Shown here: positions 2,671 through 54,903 of the stretch, in pieces
How the letters are laid out: the number at the start of each line of letters is the position of its first letter
How positions within the stretch are numbered: the stretch's first letter is position 1
Assembly: GCA_017524545.1 (NCBI GenBank)
Contig: JAFXVN010000081.1
Coordinates: 27,355-91,354, forward strand
DNA from: Bacteroidaceae bacterium
GTDB taxonomy: Bacteria > Bacteroidota > Bacteroidia > Bacteroidales > Bacteroidaceae
Reading direction: 5' to 3'
DNA length: 64,000 nucleotides
Translations under genes and position numbers: made by a program
The notes under the pieces: generated by a model
Told to the model about the DNA's origin: nothing
What the model saw: the letters and a program-made list of their open reading frames with translations, nothing else
The model's database searches: none

Positions 2671-4509
2671 ATGGTGGAAATTAGGGAAAAGGAATCTGTA
2701 GTAGTTAGATTCTCTGGTGATTCTGGCGACGGTATGCAGTTGGCCGGAAACATTTTTTCTACGGTCAGTGCTACCGTAGGCAACAGTATCAGCACCTTCC
2801 CCGACTATCCTGCCGACATCCGCGCTCCGCAAGGTTCGCTGACGGGTGTGAGCGGCTTTCAGGTGCATATCGGTGCCGGGCAGGTCTATACCCCAGGCGA
2901 CCTCTGCGATGTGCTGGTGGCTATGAATGCCGCAGCCCTGAAGACGCAGTACCGCTATGCGAAGCCCGATGCCGCTATCATCATCGATACCGACAGCTTT
3001 GGCCCGAAGGATTTGGAGAAGGCGCAGTTCAAGACCGAGGACTATCTGGGCGAGATGGGCATTGACCCGGACCGCGTGATAGCCTGCCCGCTCACAACGA
3101 TGGTGAAAGATTGCCTGAAGGACAGCGGGATGGATGCCAAGAGCGTCAGCAAGTGCCGCAACATGTTTGCCCTGGGCCTCGTCTGCTGGCTCTTCGACCG
3201 CGACCTCAACGTGGCCTTCAACTTCCTCCGGGAGAAGTTTGCCAAGAAACCTGAGGTGGCAGAAGCCAACATCAAGGTCATTCAGGCTGGCTATGACTAC
3301 GGACACAACACGCACTCGAGCGTGGCGAACGTCTATCGCATCGAGACGAAGCACAAGGTGCCTGGCCGCTACATGGACATCACGGGTAACAAGGCTACGG
3401 CATACGGTTTCATCGCCGCTGCCGAGAAAGCTGGACTGAAGCTCTACCTCGGCTCATATCCCATCACGCCTGCTACGGACGTGCTGCACGAGCTGTCGAA
3501 GCACAAGAGCCTCGGCGTGATTACTGTGCAGTGCGAGGACGAGATAGCGGGCTGCGCCAGTGCCGTCGGCGCATCTTTCGCAGGGGCGTTGGCTGTGACC
3601 AGCACCAGCGGTCCCGGCATCTGCCTGAAGAGCGAGGCAATGAACTTGGCAGTCATCATGGAGCTGCCACTCGTGGTGCTCGACGTTCAGCGCGGCGGAC
3701 CGGCTACAGGCCTGCCCACCAAGAGCGAACAGACCGACTTGCTGCAGGCACTCTTCGGCAGAAACGGCGAGAGTCCGATGCCCGTCATTGCAGCCTCCAG
3801 CCCCACCGACTGCTTCGATGCTGCCTATACTGCTGCAAAGATGGCGTTGGAGCACATGACACCTGTCATCCTGATGACCGACGCATTCGTTGCCAACGGT
3901 TCGGGTGCATTCAAGCTGCCCAACCTCGCAGACTATCCTGCCATCCAGCCTCCATACGTCCCCGAGGAACTTAGGGGTTCTTGGACACCCTACATGCGCA
4001 ATGCAGAGGGTGTCCGCTACTGGGCTGTGCCTGGTCGCGAGGGCTTCGAGCACATCCTGGGCGGACTGGAGAAGGACGACAAGACGGGTGCCATCAGCAC
4101 CAATCCCGAGAACCACGACCTGATGACCCGCAAGCGTCAGGCGAAGATAGACGCTATTCCCGTTCCCGACCTCGAAGTGCTGGGCGACAAGGACGATGCA
4201 GAGCTGCTCATCGTCGGCTTTGGCGGCACCTACGGCCACCTTCATGCCGCAATGGACGAACTCCGTGCTCAGGGCAAGAAAGTCGCCCTCGCTCACTTCC
4301 GCTACATCAACCCGCTGCCCAAGAACACAGCCGAGGTGCTGAAGAAGTACCCGAAGGTGGTGGTGGCCGAACAGAACATGGGTCAGCTCGCCGCCTGGCT
4401 CCGCATGAAAGTCGATGGCTTCGTACCCATGCAGTTCAACCAAGTAAAGGGACAGCCATTTGTCGTGAACGAACTCGTCGAAGCATTCGAATGTTTAGTT
4501 AAGAGTTAA
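2671..4509 (+). CDS. korA: 2-oxoglutarate:ferredoxin oxidoreductase, subunit alpha (gamma-alpha fusion)
   Basis: A 612-residue subunit of the cytoplasmic enzyme that decarboxylates 2-oxoglutarate to succinyl-CoA and reduces ferredoxin, or runs in reverse to fix CO2. Residues 1-190 form the gamma-type domain (GDSGDGMQLAG at 16-26). The alpha domain starts near residue 240 with LGSYPITPATD and contains the STSGPGICLKSEA segment. The length fits the fused KorA of Bacteroidetes. The last residues (LVKS) and the stop are encoded inside a short repeat arm, so the native end may have been slightly altered. korB follows but is separated by an inserted four-helix-bundle gene. Other 2-oxoacid ferredoxin oxidoreductases are possible, but order and sequence favour Kor. 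Confidence 0.9.
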   Translation: MVEIREKESVVVRFSGDSGDGMQLAGNIFSTVSATVGNSISTFPDYPADIRAPQGSLTGVSGFQVHIGAGQVYTPGDLCDVLVAMNAAALKTQYRYAKPDAAIIIDTDSFGPKDLEKAQFKTEDYLGEMGIDPDRVIACPLTTMVKDCLKDSGMDAKSVSKCRNMFALGLVCWLFDRDLNVAFNFLREKFAKKPEVAEANIKVIQAGYDYGHNTHSSVANVYRIETKHKVPGRYMDITGNKATAYGFIAAAEKAGLKLYLGSYPITPATDVLHELSKHKSLGVITVQCEDEIAGCASAVGASFAGALAVTSTSGPGICLKSEAMNLAVIMELPLVVLDVQRGGPATGLPTKSEQTDLLQALFGRNGESPMPVIAASSPTDCFDAAYTAAKMALEHMTPVILMTDAFVANGSGAFKLPNLADYPAIQPPYVPEELRGSWTPYMRNAEGVRYWAVPGREGFEHILGGLEKDDKTGAISTNPENHDLMTRKRQAKIDAIPVPDLEVLGDKDDAELLIVGFGGTYGHLHAAMDELRAQGKKVALAHFRYINPLPKNTAEVLKKYPKVVVAEQNMGQLAAWLRMKVDGFVPMQFNQVKGQPFVVNELVEAFECLVKS

Positions 4510-4940
4510 GAATTAAGAGTTAAGAAAGAATGTCACAAGACATACTAATAGACAAACGCTCTTATTTGTTTGCCCTTCGAATAGTAAAGGCTTATAAGTA
4601 TCTGACAAAGCAGCAGAATGAATACGTCCTGTCAAAGCAGATGCTTCGTAGTGGAACTGCCATTGGCGCAATGATGCGAGAAGCCAAGTTTGCCCAAAGC
4701 CGTGCGGACTTTGTCAGCAAAGCATCAATTGCCTTGAAGGAAGCAAATGAAACTCTTTATTGGCTGGAACTCTTACATGATAGCGAATATATTGACGAAA
4801 AAACATTTAACTCAATTCATACCGAGGCAGATGAGATAACAGCTATCTTAGCCTCTATAGTAAAATCAACAAAGGAGAACACGGAGAAATACGACAACGC
4901 AAAAGGTGTTTTTCTTAACTCTTAACTCTTAATTCTTAAC
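4498..4940. repeat. inverted-repeat cassette carrying a four-helix-bundle gene
   Basis: Left arm 4498-4528 and right arm 4911-4940 are built from the words GTTAAGA, ATTAAGA and GTTAAGA and face each other. The reverse complement of the right arm matches the left arm over about 30 bases apart from the order of the words. The only thing between them is the four-helix-bundle gene. The korA stop codon and the stop codon of the enclosed gene both lie within the arms. The whole unit separates korA from korB, which are normally adjacent. Confidence 0.8.
4530..4925 (+). CDS. four-helix-bundle protein (S23/IVP family)
   Basis: A 131-residue all-helical protein of the family first found as open frames in intervening sequences of 23S rRNA. 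Visible hallmarks are LRSGTAIGAMMREA near residues 41-54, then the KASIALKEANETLYWLELL segment, and a long last helix. No enzymatic motif is present and the biochemical role of the family is not known. The gene sits alone inside inverted repeats between korA and korB. Its last codons (LNS, stop) are supplied by the right repeat arm. Codon use looks AT-richer than that of the flanking kor genes, which fits arrival by transfer. Confidence 0.9.
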   Translation: MSQDILIDKRSYLFALRIVKAYKYLTKQQNEYVLSKQMLRSGTAIGAMMREAKFAQSRADFVSKASIALKEANETLYWLELLHDSEYIDEKTFNSIHTEADEITAILASIVKSTKENTEKYDNAKGVFLNS

Positions 4941-4945
4941 TAAAG

Positions 4946-5938
4946 ATGTATAGCGCACAAGATTATAAGAAGGGACAGCCGCGTTGGTGTCCTGGATGCG
5001 GCGACCACTTTTTCCTGTCCAGTCTGCATAAAGCAATGGCAGAGATAGGTGTGGCGCCTTCGCAGACCGCCGTTATCAGCGGTATCGGTTGTTCCAGCCG
5101 TCTGCCCCACTATATGGCAACATACGGCATGAACACCATTCACGGCCGCGCCGCAGCGATTGCTACTGGCTGCAAGGTGGCAAACCCCGACCTGGCCGTA
5201 TGGCAGGTGAGCGGCGACGGCGACGGCCTCGCCATCGGCGGCAACCACTTCATACACGCCAACCGCCGCAACATCAACCTTAACATGATTCTGCTGAACA
5301 ACCGCATCTACGGCTTGACCAAGGGACAGTACAGCCCCACCAGTCCGCGCGGTTTCGTCAGCAAGTCGTCGCCCTATGGCACCGTGGAAGACCCCTTCCG
5401 CCCTGCCGAGCTTTGCTTCGGCGCACGCGGCCATTTCTTCGCCCGTGCCGTCGCCACCGATGCCCCCGGAACTATCGAAGTGCTCAAGGCTGCCTATAGC
5501 CACAAGGGTGCCAGCGTCTGCGAGATTTTGCAGAACTGCGTCATCTTCAACAACGGCACGCACGACGCTGTCTATAGCAAAGAGGGTCGCACGAAGAATG
5601 CGATTTACCTGAAGCACGGCGAGAAGATGCTCTTCGGCGAGAACAATGAGTATGGTATCGTGCAGGAAGGCTTCGGCGTGAAGGCTGTGAAGCTGGGTGA
5701 AGATGGTTACACGGAGGCCGATGTGCTGGTTCACGATGCAAAATGCGAGGACAACACCTTGCAGCTGAAGCTGGCAGAGATGGAGTGGCCCATTGCCCTC
5801 GGTGTCATCCGCGATGTGGAGGCTCCCACCTACGACGACTGCGTCATGGCTCAGATAGAGGAAGTCAAGGCAAAAAAGAAGTACCACAACTTCGCCGAAC
5901 TCCTCGAGACGAACGACATCTGGACAGTCAGCGAATAG
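4946..5938 (+). CDS. korB: 2-oxoglutarate:ferredoxin oxidoreductase, subunit beta
   Basis: A 330-residue thiamine-diphosphate-binding partner of KorA. CPGCGDH at residues 15-21 starts the beta subunit, GIGCSSR follows near residue 48, and the VSGDGDGLAIGGNHF segment with a following NN (about 90-122) is the thiamine diphosphate/Mg site. The length fits the family. The first ATG lies five bases after the right arm of the repeat cassette. The start is clear from the conserved RWCPGCG beginning. No ferredoxin-like korD gene is seen on either side. Confidence 0.92.
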   Translation: MYSAQDYKKGQPRWCPGCGDHFFLSSLHKAMAEIGVAPSQTAVISGIGCSSRLPHYMATYGMNTIHGRAAAIATGCKVANPDLAVWQVSGDGDGLAIGGNHFIHANRRNINLNMILLNNRIYGLTKGQYSPTSPRGFVSKSSPYGTVEDPFRPAELCFGARGHFFARAVATDAPGTIEVLKAAYSHKGASVCEILQNCVIFNNGTHDAVYSKEGRTKNAIYLKHGEKMLFGENNEYGIVQEGFGVKAVKLGEDGYTEADVLVHDAKCEDNTLQLKLAEMEWPIALGVIRDVEAPTYDDCVMAQIEEVKAKKKYHNFAELLETNDIWTVSE

Positions 5939-23655: not shown

Positions 23656-23828
23656 GTTAAGAATTAAGAGTTAAGAGTTAAGAAAAATACCACATGCCAT
23701 CAAACACAACGGCATCCAAAACTATCTTTCTTAACTCTTAATTCTTAATTCTTAACTCTTAACTCTTAATTCTTAACTCTTAACTCTTAATTCTTAACTC
23801 TTAACTCTTAATTCTTAACTCTTAACTA
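23656..23828. repeat. inverted-repeat element with expanded right arm
   Basis: Left arm 23656-23685 is a perfect 30-base match to the reverse complement of the right arm of the four-helix-bundle cassette (4911-4940). After a spacer of about 40 bases the right arm starts TTTCTTAACTCTTAA and repeats CTTAACT/CTTAATT words for about 100 bases up to ispF. The 200-base gap between porV and ispF holds nothing else. Confidence 0.85.
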
Positions 23829-23845
23829 AAAGAAATAACTATCCA

Positions 23846-24328
23846 ATGAATAAGATTCGGGTTGGTTTTGGCTACGACGTCCACCAGCTTGTCGAAGGAC
23901 GCGAACTGTGGTTGGGTGGCATACGCTTCGAGCACCCGCTTGGGCTGCTGGGACACAGCGATGCCGACGTGCTCATTCATGCCATCTGCGACGCCCTGTT
24001 GGGCGCTGCCAACATGCGCGACATCGGGTATCACTTCCCGGACAACAGCGAGGCATTCCGAGGCATCGACAGCAAAATCCTGCTGCGCAAGACCGTGGAA
24101 CTCATTGCCACCAAGGGGTACAAGGTGGGCAACATCGATGCCACCGTTTGTGCAGAGCGTCCCAAGATGAAGGCACGCATCCCCGAAATGCAGCAATGCC
24201 TGGCAGAGGTGATGGGCATCGACATTGACGACGTTTCCATCAAAGCCACCACGACCGAAAAGCTCGGCTTCACAGGCCGCGAGGAAGGCATCTCCGCCTA
24301 CGCCACCGTGTTAATTCATAATTCATAA
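23846..24328 (+). CDS. ispF: 2-C-methyl-D-erythritol 2,4-cyclodiphosphate synthase
   Basis: A 160-residue enzyme of the non-mevalonate isoprenoid pathway, a cytoplasmic trimer that cyclises CDP-methylerythritol phosphate. Zinc ligands fit Asp11 and His13 (GYDVH) and His45 (SDADVLIHAICDALLGA). The KATTTEKLGFTGREEGI segment near the end binds the CDP part. The last residues (LIHNS) and the stop codon are encoded by the left arm of a repeat element, so the native C-terminus has been replaced. The porU-porV-ispF order is also found in Porphyromonas, to my knowledge. Confidence 0.95.
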   Translation: MNKIRVGFGYDVHQLVEGRELWLGGIRFEHPLGLLGHSDADVLIHAICDALLGAANMRDIGYHFPDNSEAFRGIDSKILLRKTVELIATKGYKVGNIDATVCAERPKMKARIPEMQQCLAEVMGIDIDDVSIKATTTEKLGFTGREEGISAYATVLIHNS

Positions 24329-24410
24329 TTATCAATTCATAAATTATTCTCTTGCACAGTTATGGATGGCGAGCCCTTATTATGAATTATGAATTAAGAA
24401 TTATGAATTC
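24311..24410. repeat. inverted-repeat element joining ispF and the acyltransferase
   Basis: Left arm 24311-24348 (TTCATAATTCATAATT words) and right arm 24377-24410 (TTATGAATTATGAATTAAG) face each other across a 28-base spacer. The left arm supplies the end of ispF, the right arm supplies the first codons of the acyltransferase. Confidence 0.8.
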
Positions 24411-54799: not shown

Positions 54800-54903
54800 A
54801 AAAGTTGAAAAATTGAAAAGTTGAAAAATTGAAAGAGAAATAGGCAAGTTAAAGAGTCGAGGTGTGTTTTCACCTTTTTACCCTTTCACCTTTTCACCTT
54901 TTA
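54800..54903. repeat. imperfect inverted-repeat element between MFP and RND genes
   Basis: Left arm AAAGTTGAAAAATTGAAAAG and onward, right arm TTTTCACCTTTTTACCCTTT and onward (54867-54903). They pair imperfectly across a spacer of about 30 bases. The right arm touches the stop codon of the MFP gene. Confidence 0.6.

Follow-up and report, generated by a model that had tools for sequence, protein, structure and literature searches.

The closest described relatives of the element reported here are the intervening sequences (IVSs) of 23S rRNA, which we read as the rRNA subset of the same element class. In Coxiella, the IVS carries an S23 open reading frame (ORF), has a 28-bp stem at its ends, and contains a strain-dependent number of GACAGAT heptamers; RNase III cuts the stems of IVSs, with no detectable harm to the host (PMC4990558). 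Their mobility is an old conjecture (Ralph and McClelland 1993), and a member of the same protein family forms a five-fold ring (both cited in PMC4990558). Here, we analyzed a comparable element in a 64,000-nt stretch of DNA from a Bacteroidaceae bacterium (assembly GCA_017524545.1, contig JAFXVN010000081.1, positions 27,355 to 91,354; hereafter, the window), in which a small four-helix-bundle gene enclosed by facing arrays of a 7-nt word lies between a korA-type and a korB-type gene. Our data indicated that it is probably a mobile element of ~0.4-0.6 kb, composed of facing word arrays and one small gene, that inserts as a unit at co-directional operon junctions. The window element shares with 23S rRNA IVSs the protein family, an inverted terminal stem, a size of ~0.43 kb, and the sense orientation within the host transcript, and with that of Coxiella also the tandem heptamers (PMC4990558). 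IVSs sit in 23S rRNA helices, whereas the window element lies between two oxidoreductase protein genes, outside rRNA; general word arrays on both arms, movement from operon to operon, and gene-less copies do not appear in the portion of the IVS account available to us (PMC4990558).

Heptameric intergenic repeats resemble the window arms in consisting of tandem 7-nt units between genes. In Xanthomonas, GGGAATC heptamers form convergent inverted pairs (70 and 75), and in Nostoc, GGGGAYT forms few (PMC4692102). In Beggiatoaceae, TAACTGA heptamers lie just before start codons and have been proposed to be regulatory, one genome having 169 direct sets and one inverted repeat; heptamer arrays in Beggiatoaceae, Cyanobacteria, and Bacteroidetes are mostly single (PMC4679880). 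The origin of these repeats is left open in the accessible text of both reports (PMC4692102, PMC4679880), one of which puts it as "no mechanism is evident". As far as these portions go, the few pairs in Nostoc and the mostly single arrays in Beggiatoaceae weaken a simple identity with the window arms, and the published heptamer repeats may be the gene-less form of the element described here. Heptamers have reportedly been found in Calothrix as well.

Repetitive extragenic palindromic (REP) elements comprise many short gene-less hairpin copies and a few gene-bearing ones, the latter encoding RAYT, a Y1 HuH nuclease. The earlier note on this DNA had drawn a parallel with RAYT; a profile search with the window protein returned PF05635 only and neither Y1/HuH nor any other recognized nuclease, making the comparison an analogy rather than a membership. 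The likeness resides in the many gene-less and few gene-bearing copies, whereas REP ends are fixed palindromes and the ends here are arrays of a word that differs between copies. Miniature inverted-repeat transposable elements (MITEs) are likewise short and intergenic, with terminal inverted repeats and no transposase, and BrickBuilt, a MITE of Porphyromonas gingivalis, also contains a tandem repeat (PMC4596501); their ends are one fixed sequence, in contrast to the word arrays and the gene-bearing members without a recognized transposase seen here. A group I or II intron was not indicated, since no family reached its gathering score in an Rfam scan of positions 4300-5200 and the PF05635-only protein resembled no intron-encoded enzyme. 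PF05635 is sometimes encoded by rRNA insertions of the Candidate Phyla Radiation (PMC11270868), and 18 such genes lie inside cas operons (PMC3936711). A search of the open-access literature, mostly at the level of titles and abstracts, found nothing tying heptamer repeats to four-helix-bundle genes outside rRNA or the package to mobility.

A gene family packaged in facing word arrays

The earlier note had described, from the letters alone, a gene of the S23/IVP-type four-helix-bundle family that is bounded by facing GTTAAGA/ATTAAGA arms, splits korA from korB, and takes its stop codon from the right arm, and our analysis bore out each of these points. There are four exact units on each side (4498-4525 and 4913-4940), the enclosed stop codon (4923-4925) is part of the right arm, and the protein exceeded the cut-offs of both PF05635 (92.0 versus 33.8 bits) and the four-helix-bundle family TIGR02436 (102.5 versus 24 bits), with 2RLD as its sole convincing sequence relative among solved structures. 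The names korA and korB are right at the family level because the neighbors match the alpha (above the cut-off) and beta (strong, below the cut-off) subunits of 2-oxoacid:acceptor oxidoreductases. The upstream gene also terminates in the left arm, and the downstream start codon lies 5 nt past the right arm. The two ends form a terminal stem (4491-4527/4911-4947) that is 92% complementary, and RNA folding of the complete element gave -127.4 kcal/mol (z, -5.65). The inner end beside the right arm was compared with that of the orthologue L091, which reads GGTATTTTT, and with the gene-less cores bearing the same RTTAAGA word, 6 of 14 of which end in GGTATTTT.

The arm score was that of the best inverted match without gaps between the two 300-nt flanks of a gene, with a threshold of 12 and a stricter one of 16. 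The genome of the window had 12 PF05635 matches: eight intact copies above the cut-off were scored, and the other four (three broken-gene pieces on contig C40 and one sub-cut-off match on contig C6) were read by eye. The genus set contributed 75 further copies (29 automatic loci and 46 picked from the listed matches, with L275 and L277 being one gene in two genomes), and the GTDB set of named genomes from many phyla comprised the best 80 of at least 565 confirmed loci. A cyanobacterial order provided 30 copies and six named genomes provided 15 scored out of 23 matches; one and five of these loci, respectively, were already in the GTDB set.

All eight intact copies in the genome of the window had facing arrays, each with its own word (GTTGACRA, 8 nt; GGAGTTAAR, 9 nt; and, at 7 nt, GATTAGG, RTTAAGA, ATTCAYA, GTGAAGA, TTTACGA, and ATTTACC). 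Together with 29/29 automatic and 44/46 picked genus loci, 81 of 83 copies had arms at the threshold of 12; these 83 copies represent 48 distinct junctions, 47 of which had arms. Across phyla, arms were present in 62/80 copies (41/80 at 16) versus 8/90 of their neighbor genes (4/90 at 16), in line with the expectation of the earlier note that the flanks of other four-helix-bundle genes would be enriched for such arms. Among control genes of the window's genome, 12/288 passed at 12 and 4/288 at 16; the window element scored 28, indicating that its arms are not a product of chance. In the cyanobacterial order, 22/30 copies had arms (22/29 without the GTDB overlap), 27/30 had at least one clearly periodic arm, and tandem periodicity was clear in 45/60 flanks; in the six named genomes, the count was 13/15 (9/10 without the overlap). 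Two archaeal contigs in the GTDB set scored 12, with array-like flanks on both sides (L119), and 8, near a contig end (L146). A null built from mismatched pairs had a 99% point of 31 in the genus, and 1/29 genus, 7/8 own-genome, and 55/80 GTDB loci stood out against it; since words are shared within the genus, this null is inflated there, and control genes were therefore used. Family members were present in 81/101 genus genomes and in 43/60 genomes of the cyanobacterial order. Collectively, this is one gene family with arms of one design and varying words, not one repeat family that has caught a gene.

Two loci in the same genome were read by eye. At L042 (C6:11300-12300), arrays of a GTCCGACAA/GTCNGACNR type word flank a four-helix-like gene that is longer (223-aa open frame) and scores below the cut-off of the family; it apparently belongs to another subfamily with longer words. 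At L041 (C40:18950-21400), one host gene is flanked by two broken four-helix-bundle genes that retain facing arms of AAGTTAAAGGG and ATTGATA types, as decaying elements.

Presence, absence, and placement of the element

Relatives of copy L002 were found in 25 plasmid records and in no phage record. On plasmid C of Trichormus variabilis ATCC 29413, the element occupies a site that is empty in Tolypothrix PCC 7601 and Nostoc linckia NIES-25; the flanks are ~98% identical, the 423-nt insert ends at the outer arm edges, and GTAAT stands on both sides. The same site is filled in Scytonema NIES-4073 by an element 14 nt shorter, and Nostoc ATCC 53789 has filled and empty forms on two of its own plasmids, with the 5-nt repeat TTCTA. 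Three copies at three different plasmid junctions (L451, L452, and L453) are 78-82% identical over 416-419 nt, with the homology ending within ~5 nt of the outer arm edges. Within the genus, L060 and L065, whose proteins are 93% identical and whose neighbors differ, match at 88% over 414 nt; the alignment reaches the outer edge of the right arm and enters the left arrays, and elsewhere only short array matches were found. An arm-bounded element that is present or absent, together with sister copies that match arm to arm, indicates that arms and gene move as a unit. At a TraM junction, Nostoc edaphicum has a gene-bearing copy, C057 has a 52-nt spacer, and pNsp_c of Nostoc ATCC 53789 has arrays of related words with no annotated gene.

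The alternative that nothing moves, with arrays arising by slippage and hairpin copying around fixed genes and absence reflecting gene loss, is barely credible to us. Array length does vary (by 14 nt between the orthologues L451 and L456), and short heptamer-arm leftovers without a gene at the korA-korB junction of two relatives (TTAGTTAATTCTTAATCTTAAC in G074, L094; similar in G028, L386) are possible scars of loss by deletion between arms. Against this stand the recurrence of one element at three plasmid junctions, where homology stops within the arms, the rarity of arms around control genes, and above all the arm-exact insertion on near-identical plasmids, with GTAAT on both sides versus an unmarked empty site. 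Two other pairs of copies were considered as transpositions of the element in its own right and rejected. L345 and L346 belong to a duplication that spans 3.4 kb or more. L347 and L348, in cyanobacterial genome G152, are 576-bp copies, 99.8% identical and in opposite orientation, with a 10-nt direct repeat outside one of them; here, the four-helix-bundle element is the cargo of another element, because the matches extend past the arms as far as a 19-bp terminal repeat.

At the korA-korB junction, a korB match was obtained in 97 of 101 genus genomes; 69 junctions were entered, of which 68 were readable (all except G019). The tally leaves out L090 (G086, contig end), and G091 was counted apart. 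The junction was empty (7-54 nt) in 41 of the 68 genomes, which answers the earlier note's proposal to look for such sites, and it held a four-helix-bundle gene in four (a fifth copy being in G091), a GxxExxY gene in 14, arrays alone in four, and other contents in five. The latter were a DUF559 endonuclease gene with palindromic arms, intact in G002 (121 bits against PF04480) and G077 and decayed in G060, AACTAG-type arrays in G066, and a palindromic stretch without a gene in G022. A quick korB tree required 10 changes of the GxxExxY state (13.1 when shuffled) and 3 of the four-helix-bundle state (3.9 when shuffled). The arm-bounded insertion on plasmids, the empty korA-korB sites, and the enrichment of flanks together uphold the view that the gene travels inside the repeats.

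Placement was strongly biased. With orientation taken from codon scoring of the neighbors, all 77 copies of the window's genome and genus with both neighbors called (8 + 69) lay in sense between two co-directional genes, as did six more copies relative to their single reachable neighbor; the background was 184/243 co-directional adjacent pairs (p = 7e-10, orthologous copies counted singly). In the GTDB set, a crude ORF-length tally, spoiled by antisense shadow ORFs, gave ++ 47, +- 8, -+ 11, and -- 1 of 67. The gene-less RTTAAGA copies also lay between co-directional neighbors (12/12 with both called), mostly 30 nt or less from each. Of the close facing pairs picked up in a blind 464-kb scan, those of 7-/8-nt words were in co-directional junctions in 11 of 12 cases, and the five of 9-nt words comprised two co-directional, two convergent, and one divergent. 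For GxxExxY genes with both neighbors in reach, 14 were in sense between co-directional genes, one was antisense, and one was mixed; three of the other 14, which lacked a near neighbor on at least one side, face an opposed gene, so their placement appears somewhat less strict than that of the four-helix-bundle copies. Two cyanobacterial copies lie within cas operons, one between cas10/cmr2 and cmr3 in Picosynechococcus PCC 7003 (L454) and the other, in Anabaena sp. 90, between cas6 and cas4 (L465); these are probably ordinary operon insertions.

Alternatively, the arms could serve the host by acting as stop-codon ladders or translation signals under selection at operon junctions. The termination of the upstream gene within the window's left arm speaks for this, as do the TAACTGA heptamers before start codons in Beggiatoaceae, for which a regulatory role was proposed in the available part of that report (PMC4679880). 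Nonetheless, 41 of 68 genomes have nothing at the korA-korB junction, and we consider a host function highly unlikely. A stop-codon ladder as the main cause was rejected: 5' arrays with a stop codon in every frame were nominally, and only modestly, more frequent than expected from permuted words (43/63 versus 39.3; other phyla, 18/37 versus 12.5; cyanobacteria, 8/17 versus 5.6).

Word length, enclosed proteins, and gene-less copies

The length of the word mostly depended on the enclosed protein. At scores of at least 12, array periods around four-helix-bundle genes in the window's genome and genus were 7 (112 arrays), 8 (14), and 9 (2), whereas the period was 9 in 17/22 arrays around genus GxxExxY genes. 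In cyanobacteria, four-helix-bundle arrays had periods of 7 (36), 8 (8), and 9 (1), and GxxExxY arrays (from 10/29 loci) had periods of 10 (6), 9 (5), 8 (2), and 12 (1). Fisher tests of period against protein family gave 2e-17 in the genus and 4e-9 in cyanobacteria, though the trials are not independent because the copies are partly related. Within the four-helix-bundle family, a period of 7 or 8 could be assigned for 126/162 proteins, and this label required 10 changes on the protein tree versus 20.5 when shuffled (0/500 as low; genus alone, 4 versus 10.5), although a single genome houses 7-, 8-, and 9-nt copies.

The word itself behaved similarly. Like words were defined by an ungapped arm similarity of at least 0.5, and only pairs at different junctions were used because word sharing at the same junction is expected by descent. 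Like words were found in 74% of 27 pairs with at least 70% protein identity, in 17% at 60-70%, and in ~1% below 50%; the junction test, which relied on homology of translated flanks, can miss cases such as L062 and L259, whose flanks are shifted parts of one operon and which both sit in the two largest-scoring pair groups. The 5' arm was richer in G than in C on the gene strand in 62/76, 51/58, and 20/21 copies of three sets. Both word and word length thus appear to track the protein, with mostly another length in another family, which suggests, indirectly and at the level of sequence, that protein and arms belong together.

Two unrelated families occur in comparable packages; the best loci by score were taken for GxxExxY (30 from the genus and 29 cyanobacterial) and for DUF559 (30). 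GxxExxY (TIGR04256, PDDEXK_3) has a PD-(D/E)XK nuclease fold, and its genes had facing arms by inverted score in 24/30 genus and 24/29 cyanobacterial loci; eight plasmid records held relatives, all below 60% identity. DUF559 arms are short G/C-rich palindromes of the CCCCTCC...GGAGGGG kind, with one tandem array in 60 flanks. At korA-korB, the 14 GxxExxY copies have mostly 9-nt arms whose words vary by genome (AACGGATT, ACGAATT, and CACAGATT types), with left and right arms agreeing in each genome: the mean arm-to-arm score was 18.2 within and 11.7 across genomes (0/5000 permutations). This covariation is partly due to blocks of related genomes, and only two or three of the joint changes in word appear to be independent events. 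One shared junction is thus used by three unrelated small proteins, two of them with nuclease folds, in three kinds of facing arms.

Gene-less copies were frequent. The earlier note had reported that the right arm recurs perfectly over 30 bases at 23656-23685, and this match lies within a gene-less facing pair (23656-23827), one further element of the exact word; the claim that the same repeats are scattered through the window holds for this single element and no more. Its right arm has 14 units versus four in the left, a strong one-sided array growth. Genome-wide, a pattern of three RTTAAGA units occurred 64 + 64 times versus 0 + 1 for a reversed control pattern; the 14 gene-less RTTAAGA copies that were read had cores of 37-47 nt, and RNA folds of four gave z values of -6 to -12. 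The blind 464-kb scan found 136 short-unit arrays (three after shuffling), 24 facing pairs (none after shuffling), and 12 pairs in direct orientation; close facing gene-less pairs numbered 17. Junction arrays, scanned at periods of 6 to 10, had periods of 7 (70), 9 (18), 8 (17), 6 (1), and 10 (1). At L035 and L034, in the same genome, gene-less elements have RTTAAGA in one arm and a GATTAGG type in the other, as would result from an exchange of ends. Coordinates are collected in Table 1.

Table 1. Features of the window element, gene-less elements in the window, and other packaged gene families
Feature	Position or loci	Strand	Remarks
Left arm, four exact RTTAAGA units	4498..4525	+	Upstream gene stops here, at 4507-4509
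Four-helix-bundle gene, one ORF, 131 aa, PF05635/TIGR02436	4530..4925	+	Profile matches; stop in right arm
Right arm, four exact facing units, TCTTAAY on +	4913..4940	-	Faces left arm
Inner end beside right arm, GGTGTTTTT	4905..4913	+	Compared with orthologue L091 and gene-less cores
Upstream host gene, 2-oxoacid:acceptor oxidoreductase alpha subunit, korA-type	2671..4509	+	Over cut-off
Downstream host gene, beta subunit, korB-type	4946..5938	+	Strong matches, under curated cut-offs
Gene-less element, RTTAAGA word; arms 23656-23683 and 23729-23827, 45-nt core	23656..23827	.	RNA fold z -11.97
Gene-less facing pair, other 7-nt word (ATTCATA type)	24312..24409	.	At co-directional junction; blind scan
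Gene-less facing pair, 8-nt word (AAAAATTG type)	54800..54902	.	At co-directional junction; blind scan
GxxExxY packages	L183-L212; L349-L376 and L378; korA-korB of 14 relatives		Periodic arms mostly of 9-/10-nt words
DUF559 packages	L419-L448 (genus genomes)		Inverted arms in 28/30 loci

The abundance of gene-less facing pairs (17 close pairs in 464 kb; 14 RTTAAGA copies) and the packaging of GxxExxY and DUF559 genes in a comparable manner, even at the same junction, would also fit a scenario in which the arms are the mobile part, moved by an unrelated host transposase, with the four-helix-bundle gene as a passenger or regulator. We regard this scenario as rather unlikely: word length depends on the enclosed protein (mostly 7/8 versus 9/10), its distribution among four-helix-bundle copies agrees with the protein tree, and a passenger would not fix the spacing of the ends.

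Counter-evidence, proposed mechanism, and meaning

Several observations weigh against a mobile element in which gene and arms form one unit. No arms above the threshold were found in 18/80 GTDB and 8/30 cyanobacterial copies, ~9% of neighbor genes pass the threshold by chance, and tandem periodicity was clear in 128/166 flanks of the window's genome and genus, but in only 73/160 of the GTDB set. GxxExxY genes had clear arrays in only 22/60 flanks (15/30 genus loci), one copy in the genome of the window has a 9-nt word, and vertical descent of gene and arms together would equally yield correlations between protein and word. GTAAT is the sole unambiguous target duplication: the TTCTA duplication is uncertain because the same letters close a sister copy at another site, and five further present/absent pairs (Calothrix, Picosynechococcus, Aulosira, a second junction in Nostoc ATCC 53789, and N. 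edaphicum) show no clean duplication, their borders being too diverged. L451-L453 additionally match a second array in L452 over 44-49 nt, the only near-identical dispersed pair examined (L347 and L348) rode a conventional element with 19-bp terminal repeats, and the korA-korB copies in G000, G024, G073, G096, and G091 may derive from one insertion followed by many losses. Movement was read from sequence comparison, and no partner enzyme was found.

We nevertheless consider a mobile element of arms and gene the likely explanation, and a mechanism may be proposed for it. The enclosed gene probably lacks its own promoter and would be expressed from the host transcript. The five-fold ring of the family, which we take to be that of Xcc0516, might bind the word arrays, with one subunit or bundle per word, and thereby pair the two ends; binding of arrays by a ring would be the simplest reading because word length is linked to the protein. 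Insertion would most simply proceed into DNA with a short staggered cut, possibly made by a nuclease or recombinase encoded outside the element or by an unrecognized activity of the protein itself, and gene-less copies could be mobilized in trans. In RNA, the arms may pair as one long stem that RNase III could cleave, as in 23S rRNA IVSs, and such cutting would make insertion into operons and rRNA tolerable. Words presumably drift, with both arms changing together through hairpin or arm-to-arm copying and unit slippage.

The strictly sense position of the gene within operons would also suit a spread via RNA, in which the hairpin is reverse transcribed, the protein acts like Avd, and a reverse transcriptase is supplied in trans. 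A likeness between PF05635 and Avd has been noted in the accessible part of one report (PMC10053308), and copy L002 weakly matches bAvd below the cut-off (E, 3.7e-5); the window protein gave no hit to NCBIfam DivGenRetAVD or Pfam bAvd. Avd has an adjacent reverse transcriptase, whereas the single RVT_1 hit in the genome of the window is on contig C55 and the window is on C30. Across the genus, RVT_1 was found in 29 of 101 (incomplete) genomes, and relatives of the window protein occurred in 20/29 genomes with it and in 61/72 without it, which shows no positive association. The gene-less cores showed both orientations (four sense and three antisense among the seven orientable ones), and the clean insertion with a short direct duplication also argues for a DNA route, though RNA routes could give that too. 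Overall, we find this route improbable, and insertion into DNA remains our preferred explanation.

A wider proposition, for and against which we find the case evenly balanced, is that these elements constitute a new class of transposable elements in bacteria and perhaps archaea. Their ends would be word arrays read by their own protein, which would set the word length (7/8 for four-helix-bundle rings and 9/10 for GxxExxY), both ends would drift together, and no known transposase would be involved; 23S rRNA IVSs would be their rRNA-dwelling members, and the heptamers of cyanobacteria, xanthomonads, and sulfur bacteria would be gene-less or one-armed relics. If true, this would give a home to the common but functionally uncharacterized family TIGR02436/PF05635 and to GxxExxY, which is scarcely covered in the open-access literature, and would explain the origin of intergenic heptamer repeats, which the available text of the published reports leaves open (PMC4692102, PMC4679880). 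Should a recognition code link word and protein, it would supply a set of small proteins that bind arrays. The presence of PF05635 genes in cas operons (PMC3936711) may be accounted for in the same way, and the old idea of mobile 23S rRNA IVSs becomes directly testable via the plasmid pairs.

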